A stretch of 64,000 nt of DNA, from contig NZ_VTWS01000003.1 of assembly GCF_008727875.1 (NCBI RefSeq), positions 682,001 to 746,000 on the forward strand, read 5' to 3'. The DNA comes from Larkinella humicola (GTDB lineage Bacteria; Bacteroidota; Bacteroidia; Cytophagales; Spirosomataceae). A program made the translations under genes and the position numbers. Positions 7,552-55,229 of the stretch are shown here, piece after piece; positions within the stretch are counted from its first letter, which is position 1, and the number at the start of each line of letters is the position of its first letter. The notes below the pieces were generated by a model. It ran no database searches. It had not been told where the DNA came from and saw only the letters and a program-made list of their open reading frames with translations.

Positions 7552-7941
7552 ATGTCTACTTCTACAACGTCTTTTGTCCGTCTTTTTGTTTACGGAACCC
7601 TGCTGAGTGCGTCAAAACACCCAATGGCGCAGAATTTACGTCAAAAAACCCGGCTTCTCGGGCCGGGTTTTTTCCCCGGTCGGTTATACGATCTTGGCAT
7701 GTATCCCGGAGCGGTTTATGACCCGGTTGCTCAATCGAATGTGTTTGGGGAAGTCTATTCGTTCACAGAATCAGGGTGGAAACGGGAGCGGAAAACGCTC
7801 GATGACTACGAAGGAGATGAGTATGTCCGGTCGGTTGTGCCGGTCCAAACCGCCGATGGTTTGGTCGATTGCTGGACGTATCTTTTCAAACCGCCAACAG
7901 ATTCGTTACCGCGTATTGAGTCGGGGCGGTATTTTGGGTAA
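7552..7941 (+). CDS. Gamma-glutamylcyclotransferase / AIG2-like family protein
   Basis: 129-residue cytosolic protein of the GGCT-like fold. It has the family's opening motif FVRLFVYGTLLS (YGTL glycine loop), then GRLYDLGMYPGAV and VFGEVYSFTESGW, with a putative catalytic Glu in the LDDYEGDEYVR segment. Members release 5-oxoproline from gamma-glutamyl compounds or act on related amides; the substrate here is unknown. I start at the ATG at 7552; the longer frame from 7438 would overlap the divergent gene's start and lacks family similarity. Confidence 0.88.
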   Translation: MSTSTTSFVRLFVYGTLLSASKHPMAQNLRQKTRLLGPGFFPGRLYDLGMYPGAVYDPVAQSNVFGEVYSFTESGWKRERKTLDDYEGDEYVRSVVPVQTADGLVDCWTYLFKPPTDSLPRIESGRYFG

Positions 7942-7960
7942 AAAGGAAATCAAAAATAAT

Positions 7961-8031
7961 AAATGATGAATTTTAAATGTAAAAGTGTGCGAAGAGCGCG
8001 TCTTTACTTTTACATTTAAAATTCATCATTT
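7961..8031. repeat. AT-rich palindrome between convergent genes (P1)
   Basis: Perfect 26-bp inverted repeat: left arm 7961-7986 begins AAATGATGAATTTTAAATG, right arm 8006-8031. The loop 7987-8005 holds GTGCGAAGAGCGCG. It lies between the GGCT gene and the S41 protease gene and could terminate both. Its arm words ATTTTAAATGTAAAA recur at 62085-62174. Confidence 0.85.
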
Positions 8032-8068
8032 TACATTTATGATTCACTGTATTTGACGTCCAGACCCA

Positions 8069-12233: not shown

Positions 12234-12321
12234 AGGAGAGTAAAGAAATGAGACCAGAGAGGTAAGACAATTCGTCGGACGACCCAGTCTTTCTTCTCTG
12301 GTCTCATCGCTCTACTCTTCC
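12234..12321. repeat. Purine-rich palindrome between marR and the FadN gene (P3)
   Basis: Left arm 12234-12268 and right arm 12287-12321; the core ATGAGACCAGAGA (12248-12260) is perfectly mirrored at 12295-12307, with imperfect outer pairing. Loop includes TTCGTCGGACGACCC. The core differs by one base from ATGAGACAAGAGA in the repeat flanking the four-helix-bundle gene 2.5 kb downstream. Confidence 0.8.
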
Positions 12322-12349
12322 ATAAAGATCCAGACCCTATTTCAATACC

Positions 12350-14803
12350 ATGGAAGCAACCCTTGCAAAACCACAATCAGAAGGTCGAACTCCAACGGCC
12401 AAAAACCGCAGCATCCGCCGGGTAGCCGTCCTGGGCTCCGGCATTATGGGCTCGCGCATTGCCGCTCATTTTGCCAACATCGGCGTCGATGTGCTGCTGC
12501 TCGACATAGCCCCCAACACCCTCACACCCGCCGAGGAAGCCAAAGGACTGACGCTTGAAAAACCCGCCGTCCGCAACCGGATTGTGAACGACGCGTTTCA
12601 GAATCTGCTGAAAGCCAGCCCGGCTGCGCTCTACAGTTCGAAATTTGCTCAACGGATTACGCTGGGGAATTTTGACGATAATCTGCCCGAAATCGGCAAA
12701 TACGACTGGATTATCGAGGTGGTGGTCGAACGGCTGGACATTAAAAAATCGTTGTACGAGCGCGTCGAGCAATACCGTAAACCGGGCACGCTGATCACGT
12801 CGAATACCTCCGGGATTCCGATGCACCTGCTGACCGAAGGCCGGAGTGAGGATTTTCGGCGGCATTTCTGTGGAACCCACTTCTTCAATCCGCCCCGGTA
12901 TCTGCGCCTGCTCGAAATCATTCCCGGCCCCGAAACTGACCCGGCGATCATCGATTTTCTGATGAAATACGGCGATTTGTATCTGGGAAAAACCACGGTT
13001 TTGTGCAAAGACACGCCCGCGTTCATTGCCAACCGTTTGGGCATCTACGCCATGATCCAGACCATTCGCGTGGCTGAAGAAATGGGGCTGACCGTGGAGG
13101 AAGTCGATAAACTGACCGGCCCGGTGGTGGGTCGCCCGAAATCGGGAACATTCCGGCTCTCGGATGTCGTCGGTTTGGACACGACGGCGAATGTGGCCAA
13201 CAACCTGCTGAACGTGCTGACCAACGACGAGTCGAAAGACACCTTCCAGTTGCCGCCCGTCATGCAGAAACTGATGGAAAACAAGTGGCTGGGCGATAAA
13301 ACCGGGCAGGGCTTTTACAAGAAAATCAAGGACGAAAAAGGACAGTCTGTTATTCTGGCGCTCGACCCGAAAACGTTCGAGTACAAACCGTCGCAGAAGG
13401 TCAAATTCGCGACGCTGGAAGGCACCAAAAGCATCGACAACCTCAAAAAGCGGTTTTCGGTTCTGCTGGCTGGTCAGGACAAAGCCGGGGAATTTTACCG
13501 CAAAACCTTCGCCGACCAGTTCCGGTATGCCAGTCTCCGCATTCCTGAAATCGCCGACGAACTCTACCGCATCGATGCCGCCATTACCGCCGGTTTTGGC
13601 TGGCAACTGGGTCTGTTCGAAACCTGGGATGCCATCGGCATTCGCAAGGGAATCGAACTGATCGAGTCGCAGGGGTCAAAACCGGCGCAGTGGGTCTACG
13701 ATCTGCTCGATGCCGGTTTTGACAGTTTCTACAAAGTGGAAGCCGGTATTCGTAAATACTACGACATTCCGACGAAAAGTTACAAGGCCATTCCGGGAAC
13801 CGAGCAGTTTATTTTGCTGGAAAGTTTGTCGAACAATGTGGTTTGGAAAAATGCCGGTTCGGTCATCTACGACCTGGGCGACGGGATTCTGAACCTGGAA
13901 TTCCGCAGCAAAATGAACACGATGGGTGCCGAGGTAATCGAAGGCATCCACAAAGCCATCAGCCTGGCGGAAAAGGATTTTCGCGGCCTGGTGATCGGCA
14001 ATGACTCGTCGGAAGCCTATTCGGCGGGAGCCAATCTGGCGACGCTGTTCATGTTTGCCATCGAGCAGGAATTTGACGAGATCAATCTGATGATTGCGCA
14101 GTTCCAGCAGACGATGATGCGGGCGCGGTATTCGTCCATTCCGGTCGTGGGCGCTCCGCATTCCCTAGCCCTCGGCGGGGGCTGCGAACTGAACCTGCAC
14201 GTTGACCGCGTGGTGGCCCATTCCGAACTGTACATGGGTCTGGTGGAAGTGGGCGTCGGCCTGATTCCGGCGGGGGGTGGCACAAAAGAAATGGCCGCCC
14301 GCGCCAGCGATCTCTACCAAACCGGCGACCCCGAACTGAACATTCTGCAAAGTATGTTCATGAACATTGCCACTGCCAAAGTCTCGACTTCGGCGCAGGA
14401 AGCCCGCGAAATGAATTACCTGTTGCCCTCAGCGCAAATCGTGCTGAACCGCAGCCGCCTGATTGCCGAAGCCAAGCAGGTCGCCATCGAACTGGCTGAA
14501 AACGGCTACACGCAACCCAAACCGCGCAAAGACATCAAGGTGCAGGGAAAAACCGGGATTGCGCTCTTCAAAGCCGGGATTACCGCCATGCGCATGGGCC
14601 GCTTCATTTCCGACCACGACCAGAAAATTGCCGAAAAGCTGGCGTATGTTATTTGCGGTGGAGATTTGAGTTCTCCGCAAAACGTTAGTGAGCAGTATTT
14701 GATCGATCTGGAAAGGGAAGCTTTTCTTTCGTTAACCGGCGAGAAAAAGACGCTGGAACGGATTCAGGGGTTATTGAATGGGGGGAAACCGCCTAGGAAT
14801 TGA
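12350..14803 (+). CDS. 3-hydroxyacyl-CoA dehydrogenase / enoyl-CoA hydratase, FadN type
   Basis: 817-residue bifunctional beta-oxidation enzyme. The dehydrogenase half comes first: the NAD-binding loop RRVAVLGSGIMGSRIAAHF, then the HFFNPPRYLRLLEIIPGP catalytic-His segment and the 3HCDH C-terminal region (KDTPAFIANRLGIYAM, GQGFYKK). The crotonase half follows from about residue 510, with oxyanion-hole segments SAGANLATLF and ALGGGCELNLHVDRVVAHSE, and Glu in VEVGVGLIPAGGGTKE. This order is that of FadN rather than E. coli FadB. It hydrates enoyl-CoA and oxidises 3-hydroxyacyl-CoA in the cytosol, handing over to the thiolase downstream. Probably transcribed from the marR promoter. Confidence 0.95.
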   Translation: MEATLAKPQSEGRTPTAKNRSIRRVAVLGSGIMGSRIAAHFANIGVDVLLLDIAPNTLTPAEEAKGLTLEKPAVRNRIVNDAFQNLLKASPAALYSSKFAQRITLGNFDDNLPEIGKYDWIIEVVVERLDIKKSLYERVEQYRKPGTLITSNTSGIPMHLLTEGRSEDFRRHFCGTHFFNPPRYLRLLEIIPGPETDPAIIDFLMKYGDLYLGKTTVLCKDTPAFIANRLGIYAMIQTIRVAEEMGLTVEEVDKLTGPVVGRPKSGTFRLSDVVGLDTTANVANNLLNVLTNDESKDTFQLPPVMQKLMENKWLGDKTGQGFYKKIKDEKGQSVILALDPKTFEYKPSQKVKFATLEGTKSIDNLKKRFSVLLAGQDKAGEFYRKTFADQFRYASLRIPEIADELYRIDAAITAGFGWQLGLFETWDAIGIRKGIELIESQGSKPAQWVYDLLDAGFDSFYKVEAGIRKYYDIPTKSYKAIPGTEQFILLESLSNNVVWKNAGSVIYDLGDGILNLEFRSKMNTMGAEVIEGIHKAISLAEKDFRGLVIGNDSSEAYSAGANLATLFMFAIEQEFDEINLMIAQFQQTMMRARYSSIPVVGAPHSLALGGGCELNLHVDRVVAHSELYMGLVEVGVGLIPAGGGTKEMAARASDLYQTGDPELNILQSMFMNIATAKVSTSAQEAREMNYLLPSAQIVLNRSRLIAEAKQVAIELAENGYTQPKPRKDIKVQGKTGIALFKAGITAMRMGRFISDHDQKIAEKLAYVICGGDLSSPQNVSEQYLIDLEREAFLSLTGEKKTLERIQGLLNGGKPPRN

Positions 14804-14810
14804 TTTTTTA

Positions 14811-15284
14811 GATGCGAGATGTGAGACAAGAGAATAAAGACCTTTCATTATAATCTCACATTTAGAAGATGGAAACACACAATTTCAGAAATTTAAAAGT
14901 ATGGCAGTTATCGGTAGATTTTGTGACAGCTATTTACCAATTGACTACCCTGTTTCCAAATGACGAGAAATTCGGTTTGTCTTCACAAATTAAACGCTCG
15001 GTAGTTTCCATTCCTTCCAATATCGCGGAAGGATCTGGACGGGGTAGTAATAAGGAATTCGCCCGTTTCTTATCTATATCGCTGGCTTCATCCTACGAAT
15101 TAGAAACACAACTAATCGTTGCAGATCGTCTAAATTTCCTGGCAGAAACTATTGTTCAAGAAATAATCCGGAAACTACATGAGATACAGAAAATGATATT
15201 CTCACTCCACAAAAAGTTTGAAAGTCAAATTTCTTCCTAAACTTAAGAGTTTCTCTTGTCTCATGTCTAACCTCTTTAATCTCA
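14811..15284. repeat. Inverted-repeat arms flanking the four-helix-bundle gene (P2)
   Basis: Left arm GTGAGACAAGAGA (14821-14833) is mirrored by TCTCTTGTCTCAT (15252-15264), 418 bp away, with weaker pairing beyond (AGAtGTGAGAC against AGACATGAGAC). The left side can also form a local hairpin with AATCTCACATT just before the start codon. Everything between the arms is the 14869-15240 gene. Confidence 0.7.
14869..15240 (+). CDS. Four-helix-bundle protein (S23 / 23S rRNA intervening-sequence protein family)
   Basis: 123 residues, all helical, with the family signature NFRNLKVWQLSVDFV, then SSQIKRSVVSIPSNIAEGSG and EFARFLSISLASSYELETQL. These pentameric-bundle proteins (IVP/S23, related to the Avd protein of diversity-generating retroelements) are known from 23S rRNA intervening sequences and as orphan genes; their function is unknown, perhaps nucleic-acid binding. 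Here it sits inside a beta-oxidation operon between FadN and thiolase, is more AT-rich than its neighbours, and is enclosed by inverted-repeat arms, which suggests it was inserted. Confidence 0.93.
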   Translation: METHNFRNLKVWQLSVDFVTAIYQLTTLFPNDEKFGLSSQIKRSVVSIPSNIAEGSGRGSNKEFARFLSISLASSYELETQLIVADRLNFLAETIVQEIIRKLHEIQKMIFSLHKKFESQISS

Positions 15285-15291
15285 ATAAAAA

Positions 15292-16467
15292 ATGGACGCA
15301 TACATCGTAGCTGGCTATAGAACCGCCGTCGGGAAAGCTCCCCGGGGCGGATTGCGGCTCACCCGCCCCGACGACCTGGCGGCTGAAGTCATCAAACACC
15401 TGCTGGCGCAGGTTCCGAATTTTGACCCCGCGCGCGTCGAAGACCTCATCGTCGGCAATGCCGTGCCGGAAGCCGAGCAGGGCATGCAGATTGCCCGGTA
15501 TATTGCCCTGCTGTCGCTGCCCAACAGCGTGCCGGGCATGACCATCAACCGGTATTGTGGATCAGGACTCGAAGCCATCGCCATCGCATCCGCCAAAATC
15601 CACGCCGGACTGGCCGACTGCATCATTGCGGGTGGTACCGAGTCAATGTCGCTGGTGCCGGTGATGGGCTGGAAAACCGCCCTGAACTTCGAAATCGCGC
15701 AGAAACACCCGGATTATTACATTGGCATGGGACTAACCGCCGAGCAGGTGGCCGAGCAGTTTAAAATTGGCCGCGAAGAACAGGATCAGTTTGCCTACGA
15801 ATCACACCAGAAAGCCCTGGCGGCCCAGGCAGCCGGAAAATTCGACGGTGAAATTGTGCCAATTGCGGTGAAAGAGACGTATTTCGATGCCGATTCGGGC
15901 AAAAAGAAAACCCGCGAGTGGACCGTTGGCAAAGACGAAGGACCCCGCGCCGACACCAGTTTTGAAGCCCTGAACAAGCTGAAACCGGTTTTTGCGGCTG
16001 GCGGCTCGGTCACGGCAGGAAATTCATCGCAAACATCCGACGGTGCCGCGTTTGTCATCGTGATGTCCGAAAAGCTGGTCAACGAACTGGGGTTGAAACC
16101 CAAAGCCCGGATGGTGTCTTATGCAGCCGCTGGCGTAGAACCGCGCATTATGGGCATCGGGCCGGTGAACGCCATTCCGTTAGCCCTGAAAAAAGCCGGG
16201 TTAAAACAGGATGATATCGATCAAATTGAACTGAACGAAGCCTTTGCGGCCCAATCGCTGGCGGTTATTCAGGAACTTGGGCTGGATCGCAGCAAGATCA
16301 ATCCGAACGGCGGGGCCATTGCCCTCGGTCACGCGCTTGGTTCGACCGGCGCGCGCTTGTCGGTGCAACTCCTGAATGAAATGGAACGGCAGAACCAGAA
16401 GTACGGCATGGTTTCGGCCTGTGTCGGTGGCGGGCAGGGCGTCGCCGGGATTTTTGAGCGGCTTTGA
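15292..16467 (+). CDS. fadA: Acetyl-CoA C-acyltransferase (3-ketoacyl-CoA thiolase)
   Basis: 391 residues, usual thiolase length. Nucleophile Cys89 in NRYCGSGLEAI, His347 in GGAIALGHALGSTGAR and Cys377 in SACVGGGQGVA form the thiolase active site. It opens with YIVAGYRTAVGKAPRGG. It cleaves 3-ketoacyl-CoA with CoA to acetyl-CoA, the last beta-oxidation step, in the cytosol. It follows FadN in the MarR-headed operon, with the four-helix-bundle insert between. Assignment as FadA/FadI-type rests on context with FadN and the acyl-CoA dehydrogenase; a degradative role is likely. Confidence 0.95.
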   Translation: MDAYIVAGYRTAVGKAPRGGLRLTRPDDLAAEVIKHLLAQVPNFDPARVEDLIVGNAVPEAEQGMQIARYIALLSLPNSVPGMTINRYCGSGLEAIAIASAKIHAGLADCIIAGGTESMSLVPVMGWKTALNFEIAQKHPDYYIGMGLTAEQVAEQFKIGREEQDQFAYESHQKALAAQAAGKFDGEIVPIAVKETYFDADSGKKKTREWTVGKDEGPRADTSFEALNKLKPVFAAGGSVTAGNSSQTSDGAAFVIVMSEKLVNELGLKPKARMVSYAAAGVEPRIMGIGPVNAIPLALKKAGLKQDDIDQIELNEAFAAQSLAVIQELGLDRSKINPNGGAIALGHALGSTGARLSVQLLNEMERQNQKYGMVSACVGGGQGVAGIFERL

Positions 16468-16481
16468 CAACCGCCCGATAC

Positions 16482-16554
16482 CCCTAAATCCCCTAAAGGG
16501 GACTTGGACACAGCTTACTCCAAATGCAGAAAGTCCCCTTTAGGGGATTTAGGG
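16482..16554. repeat. CCCCTAAATCCCC-family inverted repeat, copy A
   Basis: Perfect 24-bp arms (16482-16505 beginning CCCTAAATCCCCTAAAGG; 16531-16554) around a 25-base loop. It lies between the convergent thiolase and LysM genes. A second copy with the same arm words is at 54578-54671. Each arm contains a nested CCCCTnnAGGGG hairpin. Confidence 0.9.
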
Positions 16555-38678: not shown

Positions 38679-38723
38679 AATGATGAACGATGAATGGGGC
38701 TGACGCATTCATCGTTCATCATT
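38679..38723. repeat. Low-complexity palindrome (P5)
   Basis: Perfect 18-bp arms (AATGATGAACGATGAATG, 38679-38696; mirror at 38706-38723) with a 9-base loop. The loop and its first flanking bases read GGCTGACGCA (38698-38707), which recurs reversed at 46956-46965 in another such palindrome. It lies between convergent genes. Further ATGA-rich sequence extends left to 38661. Confidence 0.85.
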
Positions 38724-49313: not shown

Positions 49314-49474
49314 ATGGGTAGAAATGGTTTGACTGGTGTAAATGGCTGCATGGTTGAATGGTTAAAAATGGTTGGATGGTTTATTAGACCTGTAACATTT
49401 TTAACCATTTAACCATCGAAACCATTTTTAACCATTCAAACCATCATAGCCATTTAACCATCGTAGACCATTAA
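49314..49474. repeat. Low-complexity ATGGTT/AACCAT palindrome between murG and murC (P8)
   Basis: Left half (49314-49380) repeats words such as AAATGGTT, ATGGTTGAATGGTT and AAAATGGTTGGATGG; right half (49397-49474) repeats AACCATTTAACCATCG and AACCATTCAAACCATC. Arms pair in several registers, with a turn near 49385-49395. It fills the whole intergenic gap. It is by far the longest of the drifting-arm palindromes in the window. Confidence 0.85.
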
Positions 49475-53167: not shown

Positions 53168-54580
53168 ATGCCAGAGGCATTGGAGTACGGCATGAGGTTT
53201 GAATTCCCCGACGAGGAGGATGACCCAATCATTAAAGTAATAGGCGTCGGTGGCGGTGGCAGCAATGCCGTCAACCACATGTTTCGAATGGGCGTGAAGG
53301 ATGTGGATTTTATTGTCTGCAACACCGACCGCCAGTCCCTGACCAATAGCCCGGTAAAGACCAAAATCCAATTGGGTGCGCTTCTGACTTCCGGACTGGG
53401 AGCCGGAACAAACCCCGAAGTAGGCCGTCAGGCCGCGCTGGAAAACACGGACGACATCCGGCAGTTACTGGGCGAACCCACCAAGATGGTTTTCATCACG
53501 GCGGGGATGGGGGGAGGCACCGGTACCGGAGCCGCACCGGTCATCGCACAGATTGCCCGGGAAATGGGCCTGCTGACAATTGCGGTTGTTACGGCACCGT
53601 TCGACTTCGAAGGCATCGAGAAGCTGGATCAGGCCATGCGCGGTATCGAAGAGTTGAAGGAATACTGCGACACGGTTCTGGTCATTCTGAACGACAAACT
53701 GGCGGAAATCTTCGAGGATTTCCCGATGGATCAGGCATTTGCCAAGGCCGATGACGTGCTGGCGAATGCCGTTAAAAGTATCGCGGAAATCATTACCGTT
53801 CAGGGCGAAATCAACGTCGACTTCATGGACGTCAAACGCGTACTGGAAGGTGCCGGTCAAGCCGTGATGGGCTCCGCCGATGCCGAAGGCGAAACCCGCG
53901 CACTGACCGCCATTCAGGATGCGCTCAACTCGCCGTTGCTCAACGACCGCGACATTCGGGGTGCCAAACGGATTCTGCTCACGATGGCGTCGGGTCCGGA
54001 TGCCCGTACGACCATGCGGGAATTGCAGATCATTACCGGTTATATCAAGGAAAAAATCGGCAAAGACAAGCAGGCGCATCTCTTCAAATACGGTACGATC
54101 AAAGACAAGTCGCTGGGCAAAAATCTCCGCGTTACAGTGATTGCTGCCGGTTTTGATTTGCCCGCCGAACGGCCGGATTTTCCGCCAACGAACTGGAAAC
54201 AGCCGGAGCCGGAGCTGAAAAAAGAGGAAGTAACCGACGAATTACCCGTTGACGAAGAAGAAGATACGGAACTGGTAACGGAGGATCAACCCCAGGGAGC
54301 AGACACCCTGACACGGGGCGGTGGGAACGTTGAAGTAGCACCGATACCCGATCCGGTAACGCGCCCGCATCTGACCAGCATCGACGACATTCTGATTGAC
54401 GAAAAGCGGGAAGATGACTTGCTGCTGATCCAGAAAATGGTCGAAGGATTTTCGCAGGGGCGGTATTCGGAGCGGGAACGGGAATTGGAAACACCGGCTT
54501 TTGCTCGCCAGAAAGTGAATTTATACGAAATACCGCTTCTCGATGAGCGGGATATTATTCGTACCCGACTGAATGATTGA
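53168..54580 (+). CDS. ftsZ: Cell division protein FtsZ
   Basis: 470 residues, longer than E. coli FtsZ (383). GTP-binding residues: [16 protein letters not shown] near 25-40 and the tubulin signature GGGTGTG at 115-121. T7-loop part [17 protein letters not shown]-like sequence is present. After the GTPase domain comes an acidic linker (about 340-440), then [14 protein letters not shown], resembling the conserved C-terminal peptide that binds FtsA, followed by about 19 further residues ending in RTRLND. Forms the Z ring. The gene is the last of the dcw block; its stop codon begins the palindrome 54578-54671. Confidence 0.97.
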
Positions 54581-54671
54581 ATGATTGCCCCTAAATCCCC
54601 TGAAGGGAACTTGTACGCGGCACTATCCGGATCAGAAAGTCCCCTTCAGGGGATTTAGGGGCAATCATTCA
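54578..54671. repeat. CCCCTAAATCCCC-family inverted repeat, copy B, bounded by two stop codons
   Basis: 35-bp arms with one mismatch. The outermost triplets are the TGA stop of ftsZ (54578-54580) and, on the minus strand, the TGA stop of the converging reductase gene (54669-54671). The arms carry CCCCTAAATCCCCTGAAGGG; the loop (24 bases) contains CGGCACTATCC. The same arm words occur at 16482-16554. Confidence 0.9.
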
Positions 54672-55229
54672 AAAATCAATTAATTGCTGCGCCTGTTGTT
54701 GCAGGAGCAGGTTGTAAAGCTCGTTGTGCAGAGCGCCTTCTTTCCAGTAATTTCGGATCTGCGCCAGCTTCACGCGCAACGCCAGTGTATTCGTCCCCAG
54801 GTAGCTAAAAATATCATTCAAATGGCTGAGAGCCAGGGCGCCACCCTGGTGATTGGCGGATAGGCCGACGAGAGCCACTTTCTTGTTTGATAAACCGCTG
54901 GGATAGCTCATCCCGTCGATAAATGCTTTCAGGACGCCGGGGTACGAATTGTTGTATTCCGGAACGATAAACACCATTTTCTTCGCCCGCTCGACCACTT
55001 CCTTATACTGGTTGAATTCAGGATTTTTTCCCGTATTTTCGTACAAAGCCGTCGTCATAAAATCGGGGGGAAGTCCGCTTAAATCCAGAATATCACTCGG
55101 TTTACCCAGTTGCTGCAAAATGAGGTGGTAATAATCGGCAATATGGCGCGACATGGAGTCTTTCCGATTGGTTCCGACGATGATGACGATGGGATTTTCA
55201 CGTACCGGTTCGGTAGGATTTGTATTCAT
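54669..55229 (-). CDS. NADPH-dependent FMN reductase family protein
   Basis: 186 residues of the flavodoxin-like fold. FMN-phosphate loop is IVIIVGTNRKDSMSRHIADY (G-T-x-R-x-x-S), with the flavin/NADPH contact MVFIVPEYNNSYPGVLKAFI and LVGLSANHQGG. It opens MNTNPTEPVRENP. I start at ATG 55229; a GTG at 55259 would add ten residues. It reduces FMN, quinones or azo/chromate-like compounds with NAD(P)H; the substrate is unknown. The gene is convergent with ftsZ. Confidence 0.9.
   Translation of the reverse strand: MNTNPTEPVRENPIVIIVGTNRKDSMSRHIADYYHLILQQLGKPSDILDLSGLPPDFMTTALYENTGKNPEFNQYKEVVERAKKMVFIVPEYNNSYPGVLKAFIDGMSYPSGLSNKKVALVGLSANHQGGALALSHLNDIFSYLGTNTLALRVKLAQIRNYWKEGALHNELYNLLLQQQAQQLIDF

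Follow-up and report, generated by a model that had tools for sequence, protein, structure and literature searches.

S23 genes and their heptad-built inverted arms as a probable small element akin to the intervening sequences of 23S rRNA

The intervening sequences (IVSs) of 23S rRNA are, in the available text of PMC4990558 (2016), stem-loops that replaced small tetraloops in 23S helices and that RNase III excises; a mobile-element origin had been proposed for them earlier, and, more than 25 years on from their discovery, their function and origin were still described as unclear. Likewise, the available text of PMC4692102 leaves without an origin two sets of G-rich heptameric repeats, GGGAATC in Xanthomonas and GGGGA(T/C)T in Nostoc. 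Here we analyze a 64,000-nucleotide stretch of the Larkinella humicola genome (contig NZ_VTWS01000003.1, positions 682,001 to 746,000; the whole stretch is called the window), in which a gene of the S23/IVP four-helix-bundle family stands between inverted repeats, which we term arms. We consider it likely that S23 genes and their arms together constitute one small IVS-like element of about 0.45-0.5 kb, which is widespread and lies mostly between co-directional genes.

REPIN-RAYT systems offer a further comparison: there a gene is bracketed by palindromes, more palindromes are dispersed through the genome, and the RAYT protein is a Y1-type transposase. STRR heptanucleotides, in turn, occur in cyanobacteria. 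The Xanthomonas and Nostoc heptads are degenerate and intergenic, and in Xanthomonas often form inverted pairs (X. campestris has 186 GGGAATC-type heptad repeats, with 70 convergent pairs); unlike the arms considered here, they are treated in the available text of PMC4692102 as quadruplex-forming, with few inverted pairs in Nostoc, and the term 'S23' does not occur in the main text so far as available. With the 23S IVSs that carry an S23/IVP frame, the elements described below share the S23 family, the stem of terminal repeats, a size of about 0.45 kb and, at the one rRNA site compared, the replacement of a small hairpin loop; a heptad build, lineage-specific arms and gene-less relatives are not described for those IVSs in the available text of PMC4990558. 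A homology between 2GSC, a solved S23 relative, and Avd of the diversity-generating retroelements has been suggested (PMC10053308, available portion).

The preliminary description of the window held that an S23/IVP gene interrupts a fadN-fadA operon, that inverted arms flank it, and that a gene-less palindrome lies between marR and fadN. The interruption is borne out by the neighbors, a fadN/fadB-like gene (12350-14803) and a thiolase gene (15292-16467), and by the profile matches of the product (PF05635, 2e-39; TIGR02436 'four helix bundle protein', 6e-37; Pfam and NCBIfam profiles), whose solved relatives are 2gsc and 2rld. Both repeats were located as well, the arms of the gene being 36 nt each and 75% complementary with 416 nt between them, and the gene-less palindrome having 32-nt arms (12237-12268 and 12287-12318) that are 84% complementary. 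The S23 gene has a G+C content of 0.37 as against 0.52 for the window. Its arm score, obtained by locally aligning the upstream flank against the reverse of the downstream one, is equalled by 0.27% of 1500 random window positions, and when the whole element is folded as RNA the arms pair as a terminal stem in both the minimum free energy and the centroid structures (z -3.65). In Pfam the protein matches only PF05635 and bAvd, with no nuclease or transposase family and no Y1 (HUH) domain; in NCBIfam it matches four-helix-bundle, two hypothetical and Avd models, again with no nuclease or transposase. The related Avd profiles (PF22296, 7.5e-6; NF033474, 4e-5) both fall below cut-off, and by curated cut-offs the protein is not Avd. 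Neither this protein nor the S23 protein of Azospirillum lipoferum matches a PADLOC family at E 0.01, and a search for S23 carriage gave no match among 50,697 phage records.

We then asked how general such arms are, using S23 loci from four sources: 31 loci across nine genomes of the genus (six of them in this genome), a family set of 51 loci from 30 genomes, a named set consisting of the best 80 of at least 579 confirmed S23 loci, and a plasmid set of 12 records, eleven of them cyanobacterial, out of 27 in which S23 was matched. When these were pooled at one flank length, after removal of two family-set fragments, arms scoring at least 30 were present at 117 of 172 S23 loci, as against 3 of 298 control small genes (genus 24/31, family 37/49, named 46/80, plasmid 10/12); the pooled loci are non-independent, several genus loci being orthologues, and the control genes were cleared only of the window S23 gene and may hold other S23 genes. 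The corresponding nulls are low: 99% of random window positions reach 24 at most, 0.97% of 1438 random positions within the named loci score at least 30, and for the family set before pooling (36/51 at or above 30) the figure is 0.3% of 674. By record title the named carriers comprise mostly Bacteroidota, followed by Planctomycetota, Nitrosomonadales, Clostridia, Gastranaerophilales, Patescibacteria and Chlorobiota; those outside Bacteroidota are metagenome bins or uncultured records, so that single assignments may be wrong, and the Azospirillum and cyanobacterial records are complete plasmids. In contrast to the 23S IVSs, none of the 80 named loci falls within an Rfam rRNA match (the scan covered the window and the named set), and the window, in which no Rfam family was matched, has its element outside 23S rRNA; that element retains the S23/IVP frame and has terminal inverted repeats, present but weak. 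Among the matches listed in a search of open-access titles and abstracts, none joins S23 genes with heptad arms. Two observations on gene number may be added: G120, a genome titled Patescibacteria (locus L263), has three S23 genes in an assembly of about 0.6 Mb, and paired S23 genes about 2.7-2.8 kb apart occur in G024 (C1), G058 (C12), G073 (C1), G092 (C22) and G096 (C138).

Examination of the arms themselves revealed that they are tandem arrays of degenerate 7-nt, sometimes 8-nt, units, able to pair into a long hairpin whose loop contains the gene. In 81 arms scoring at least 30 (46 named and 36 family, minus one longer than 120 nt), letters seven positions apart match at a rate of 0.595 versus 0.309 after shuffling (z 32); lags 14 and 21 follow with z 24 and 18, lags 8 and 16 are weak (z 4.4 and 2.7), and other lags are at or below the shuffled level. 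Of the 117 pooled arms, 83 repeat best at lag 7 and 25 at lag 8; the median length is 33 nt, and the commonest class has five units (41/117). A rough unit, AGWnnTn, emerges from 53 lag-7 arms. The arrays are also polar: read in the sense of the gene, the 5' arm has more G than C in 73 of the 81, less in 2 and as much in 6, and gene-less palindromes show the same polarity in 35 of 40 cases (1 opposite, 4 equal). The heptad unit mostly differs between elements, even inside one genome, so the expectation that S23 genes would all be flanked by the same arms fails at the level of arm type, which is mostly different within a genome, and stands at the level of the heptad build, which is common to them.

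At sites without homologous neighbors, the S23 gene and its arms behave as one unit. Between genomes, arm similarity increases with protein identity (Mantel test, 0/500; 116 loci), and in a pair test omitting pairs whose flanks are homologous by tblastx, like arms are found in 10 of the 12 pairs with 70-80% protein identity; the figures are 9/36 for 60-70%, 3/88 for 55-60% and, below 40%, 0.1% of 4131. Examples of alike arms are found on Calothrix and Pseudanabaena plasmids (74% protein identity) and in G000, the genome of the window, and G024, which belong to different genera (62%; G numbers denote the compared genomes). At a genus site occupied in six species, protein identity runs from 100% down to 56% or below, with the arms varying alongside.

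One S23 element lies inside an rRNA gene. In Azospirillum lipoferum 4B the S23 locus of AZO_p2 is placed within 23S rRNA (RF02541, 2545 bits); its arms are heptad arrays, with score 47 and lag 7. The 23S copies of AZO_p3 and AZO_p1 are identical to it across 286 nt of left and 291 nt of right flank, and where these have 19 nt AZO_p2 has 473 nt; the A. ramasamyi copy was left out of this comparison, the exact anchors being absent from the sequence fetched. The 19 nt fold as a hairpin, while the whole 67-nt region folds no better than shuffled sequence (z -0.85). Thus, one 23S copy of this strain carries the element where two others have a hairpin tip, and since heptad arms occupy that place, the A. 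lipoferum rRNA IVS shares the build of the S23 elements. There is no target duplication at this site, nor was it found as a general sign elsewhere (the G004 slot described below).

One slot in the genus shows the gene being lost with the arms kept. At this slot, C13:81474, viewed in six of the nine genomes, G000 and G005 have the gene, in G008 both arms persist but enclose no more than roughly the final 48 nt of it, and G007, G004 and G003 have arm units without it. Moreover, six of the 31 genus S23 genes contain stop codons, and the arms of these six still score 29-50. Together, this slot and the stop-bearing genes with good arms indicate that gene-less palindromes can arise by gene loss. At another slot (five of nine genomes viewed) G004 carries an S23 element, G000, G007 and G008 a palindrome, and G005 one of another kind. 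The earlier idea of filled and empty versions of one element therefore stands as a kind, given slot C13:81474 and the joint behavior of gene and arms at sites without homologous neighbors; the particular pair in the window does not bear it out by descent, its two repeats being instead two members of a genome-wide family.

That family can be traced through the 13-mers of the arms (14821-14833, 15252-15264, 12248-12260 and 12295-12307). The two pairs had been said to differ by one base in 13, which is right for the 3' arms, whereas two bases differ between the 5' arms. With up to one mismatch, ATGAGACNAGAGA occurs 57 times in the 7.86-Mb genome as against 7 for the reversed control, both arms carry a 13-mer of this type within 100 nt at 12 places, and the 5' arm region of the window gene matches two palindromes elsewhere (over 37-38 nt, 89% with E 4.5e-6 and 87% with E 3e-5). 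Hence, the likeness of the arms exceeds a random purine-rich background, and 12237-12318 is one of at least a dozen such palindromes in the genome. As RNA, 12234-12325 folds with z -7.9. Among relatives, the palindrome is common to G007 and G004 and absent from G003, with other palindromes in G005 and G008; relative to G003 it has TAAAGA repeated at its ends, which both target duplication and slippage would fit.

More widely, 464 kb sampled from G000 hold 27 gene-less heptad palindromes, ten of which match arms of resident S23 genes. Tested against S23 arms from G047, the same 27 gave one match; against equally large random sets of named arms (200 draws), they averaged 0.31 matches and never exceeded 2. 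In G047, two of 13 gene-less palindromes match its own S23 arms, one matches G000 arms and random sets gave none; a near-complete pairing of G047 arm types with its palindromes made by eye was dropped in view of this scored result. Over 227 base pairs compared between orthologous palindromes, 191 are unchanged, 11 have changed on both sides yet remain paired, 6 pair as G-T, 12 are broken and 7 are gapped, and the arms change by whole heptads (21 nt) as well as by such paired changes. A simple dosage relation, with more S23 genes giving more palindromes, failed on stretches of 12 genomes.

These palindromes raise the alternative that they are independent repetitive DNA, arising by slippage and palindrome correction, in whose loops S23 genes were caught by chance. 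We regard this as unlikely. Gene-less palindromes do outnumber S23 genes, the majority of the 27 have no counterpart among resident S23 arms, and both whole-heptad and paired arm changes are expected from slippage with template switching; yet the arms follow the S23 lineage at sites without homologous neighbors, heptad arms stand at the S23 genes of G042 and G091, whose samples show no gene-less heptad palindrome, and G065, in which no S23 gene was found, has no inverted repeat scoring at least 40 in 200 kb.

The genomic context bears on another alternative. At 133 of 159 loci with both neighbors called, the S23 gene shares the direction of two co-directional neighbors, and at 11 it is antisense to them (named 72/79, family 40/49 and genus 21/31 in sense; 0, 7 and 4 antisense), as against 66/172 and 24/172 for control small genes; these counts keep genes cut by the locus edge, an earlier rule having given 67/76 for the named set. 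Of eleven annotated plasmid loci, seven are in sense, three antisense (L343, L347, L350) and one mixed. This strong sense bias suits an element tolerated inside transcripts. It would also suit arms that are cis-regulatory only, that is, a terminator or processing stem of the S23 transcript evolving with the gene without any mobile element, as would the stable folding of the arms as RNA and the sharing of most genus sites by several species. We nevertheless judge this improbable, because related S23 genes with like arms lie beside unrelated genes across cyanobacterial orders and across genera, one 23S copy has the element that two others of the same strain lack, and gene-less palindromes of matching types are dispersed. 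Very improbable, finally, is a REPIN-RAYT-like transposon with S23 as the transposase of the dispersed palindromes: a gene within a palindrome accompanied by related gene-less palindromes recalls REPINs, the kinship in the case of the window gene resting on the 13-mer counts and 5' arm matches, but S23 is a four-helix bundle matching no Y1, nuclease or transposase family of Pfam or NCBIfam, its arms are heptad arrays, the rRNA site shows replacement without target duplication, and palindrome number does not go with S23 number.

The interpretation of S23 gene and arms as one element also yielded an expectation set beforehand, namely that a GGGAATC-rich genome should have GGGAATC arms at its S23 gene. 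PDB entry 2gsc is named XCC0516, which we take to be a Xanthomonas campestris protein. We screened 369 genomes from the class to which the Nitrosomonadales locus L305 belongs; GGGAATC matches occurred in six, and only one of these, G488, was rich in them (36, the next having 4). Its one S23 gene found is broken in frame and has inverted GGGAATC-type arms scoring 48, and it lies between biotin-carrier and biotin-carboxylase genes (by eye). Thus, the expectation held in this one case; the S23 arms of cyanobacterial plasmids likewise include G-rich heptads.

Several results weigh against taking gene and arms as one element. The arms of the window copy are weak (score 27), those of its orthologues L041 and L042 score 23, and to the 27 sampled gene-less palindromes the window arms reach a similarity of only 0.41. 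Among all S23 loci, 55 of 172 score below 30 and 11 below 20. In the genus, no two S23 proteins more than 60% identical lie at different sites, and the direction of exchange at the G004 slot was set by parsimony. The rRNA comparison is one case only, from one strain. No resident S23 arm matches 17 of the 27 palindromes of G000 and 11 of the 13 of G047 at the cut-off. Recent movement of gene-less copies is not seen, because the heptad palindromes compared between G000 and G007 are all shared (4/4 and 2/2 in two comparisons). Palindrome number does not track S23 number, given that G042, G055 and G091, with 3-5 S23 genes, yielded no gene-less heptad palindrome from a 100-kb sample each. Lastly, in the gap between fadN and fadA the control separates weakly: gaps with other genes score 16, 16, 24 and 18, and those with S23 only 23-24 in the same comparison.

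With these points taken into account, the window copy is a partly decayed member of a wider element class. Its site, 14804-15291, is a slot for alternative inserts among the nine genus genomes. In the comparison of relatives that the preliminary description suggested, G000, G004, G005 and G007 have S23 in the slot; the palindrome upstream follows a distribution of its own, as given above. G002, G003 and G008 have a PIN-type toxin-like gene and G001 a RelE-type-like gene (both by eye), and G006 has a 70-nt gap with no insert. The gap sequences of the relatives are not alignable with each other, so that a replacement of a hairpin tip could not be read there.

As to how such an element might work, we suggest that it gains entry by putting its own hairpin in place of one already there. 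The host operon would tolerate it because RNase III, as reported for IVSs, would cut the stem predicted in the transcript. An S23 oligomer may recognize the heptad type of its own element; later the gene would decay and the palindrome remain, such palindromes becoming numerous in some genomes. The structures 2gsc and 2rld list five chains each, and the family presumably forms pentamers. By analogy with the TRAP ring, which recognizes regularly spaced (G/U)AG triplets, each subunit of an S23 ring could read one heptad. The preliminary description had left S23 as either cargo or helper; the co-variation of arms and protein leans toward helper. Beyond this, we advance only tentatively, as a real possibility, that S23 elements are a multi-phylum mobile class that swaps hairpins, with a five-subunit ring reading arrays of AG-containing heptads, about five to an arm, and that the rRNA IVSs and much of the unexplained cyanobacterial and Xanthomonas heptads are its members or relics.

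Were all these one element, IVSs, S23 genes and heptad repeats would each become testable through the others, 'four helix bundle protein' genes being without a known role, and naturally filled and empty sites would give the rules of entry. Annotators could then label S23 genes as element genes and not as members of the operons they interrupt, which include fad here and cas and nrd genes on cyanobacterial plasmids. In L344, L345 and L351, S23 genes of such plasmids lie inside CRISPR-Cas operons (cas6-S23-cas4, cas10-S23-cmr3), where they could be mistaken for Cas accessory genes.

Table 1. The S23 element and the gene-less heptad palindromes of the window
Feature	Position	Strand	Evidence
Whole S23 element (arm, gene, arm) between fadN and fadA	14799..15286	+	arms form the terminal stem in the RNA fold
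5' arm, decayed heptads (..GCGAGATGTGAGACAAGAGAA)	14799..14834	+	inverted repeat, score 27
3' arm	15251..15286	+	75% complementary to the 5' arm
S23/IVP four-helix-bundle gene, 123 aa	14869..15240	+	PF05635 and TIGR02436 profiles
Gene-less palindrome, arm family of the window S23 gene, between marR and fadN	12237..12318	.	arms and RNA fold
Gene-less palindrome, heptads AAATGnA; arm type like S23 gene C13:555863 (by eye)	7948..8044	.	
Gene-less palindrome, heptads TGAAnnA; arm type like S23 gene C17:349889 (by eye)	38679..38723	.	
Gene-less palindrome, heptads GAGTnAA	46915..46998	.	
Gene-less palindrome, ATGGTTAAAA units; arm type like S23 gene C13:81474 (by eye)	49354..49439	.	

The other heptad palindromes of the window (Table 1) also occupy variable slots. 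Slot 7948, where 7940-8050 folds as RNA with z -9.2, has the palindrome in G000, G007 and G004, terminator-like hairpins in G005, G003, G001 and G002, and in G008 such a hairpin together with another palindrome; the loop in G000 is inverted relative to G007 and G004, as though flipped between the arms. Slot 38679 has three palindrome types across five genomes.

Palindromes of other builds were also encountered. A non-heptad family, CCCCTAAATCCCCTAAAGGGGACTT, for which no gene is known, is present in the window at 16482-16554 and 54577-54672; it looks recently mobile, since three G000 copies (16482, C13:293304 and C13:331906) are absent from G007, which is about 93% identical. A family of period 10, TTTCGCAGAGTTAAGCGGAG, recurs in the genome (L095 at 19260, L096 at 12330, L103 at 13166, and L373), and no S23 gene with arms of this type was seen among the loci viewed. 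Finally, palindromes of different heptad types share an inner tip, GGCTGACGC (window 38679-38723; L096 at 5907; L106 at 5312 and 10310), as if tips or arms had been swapped.

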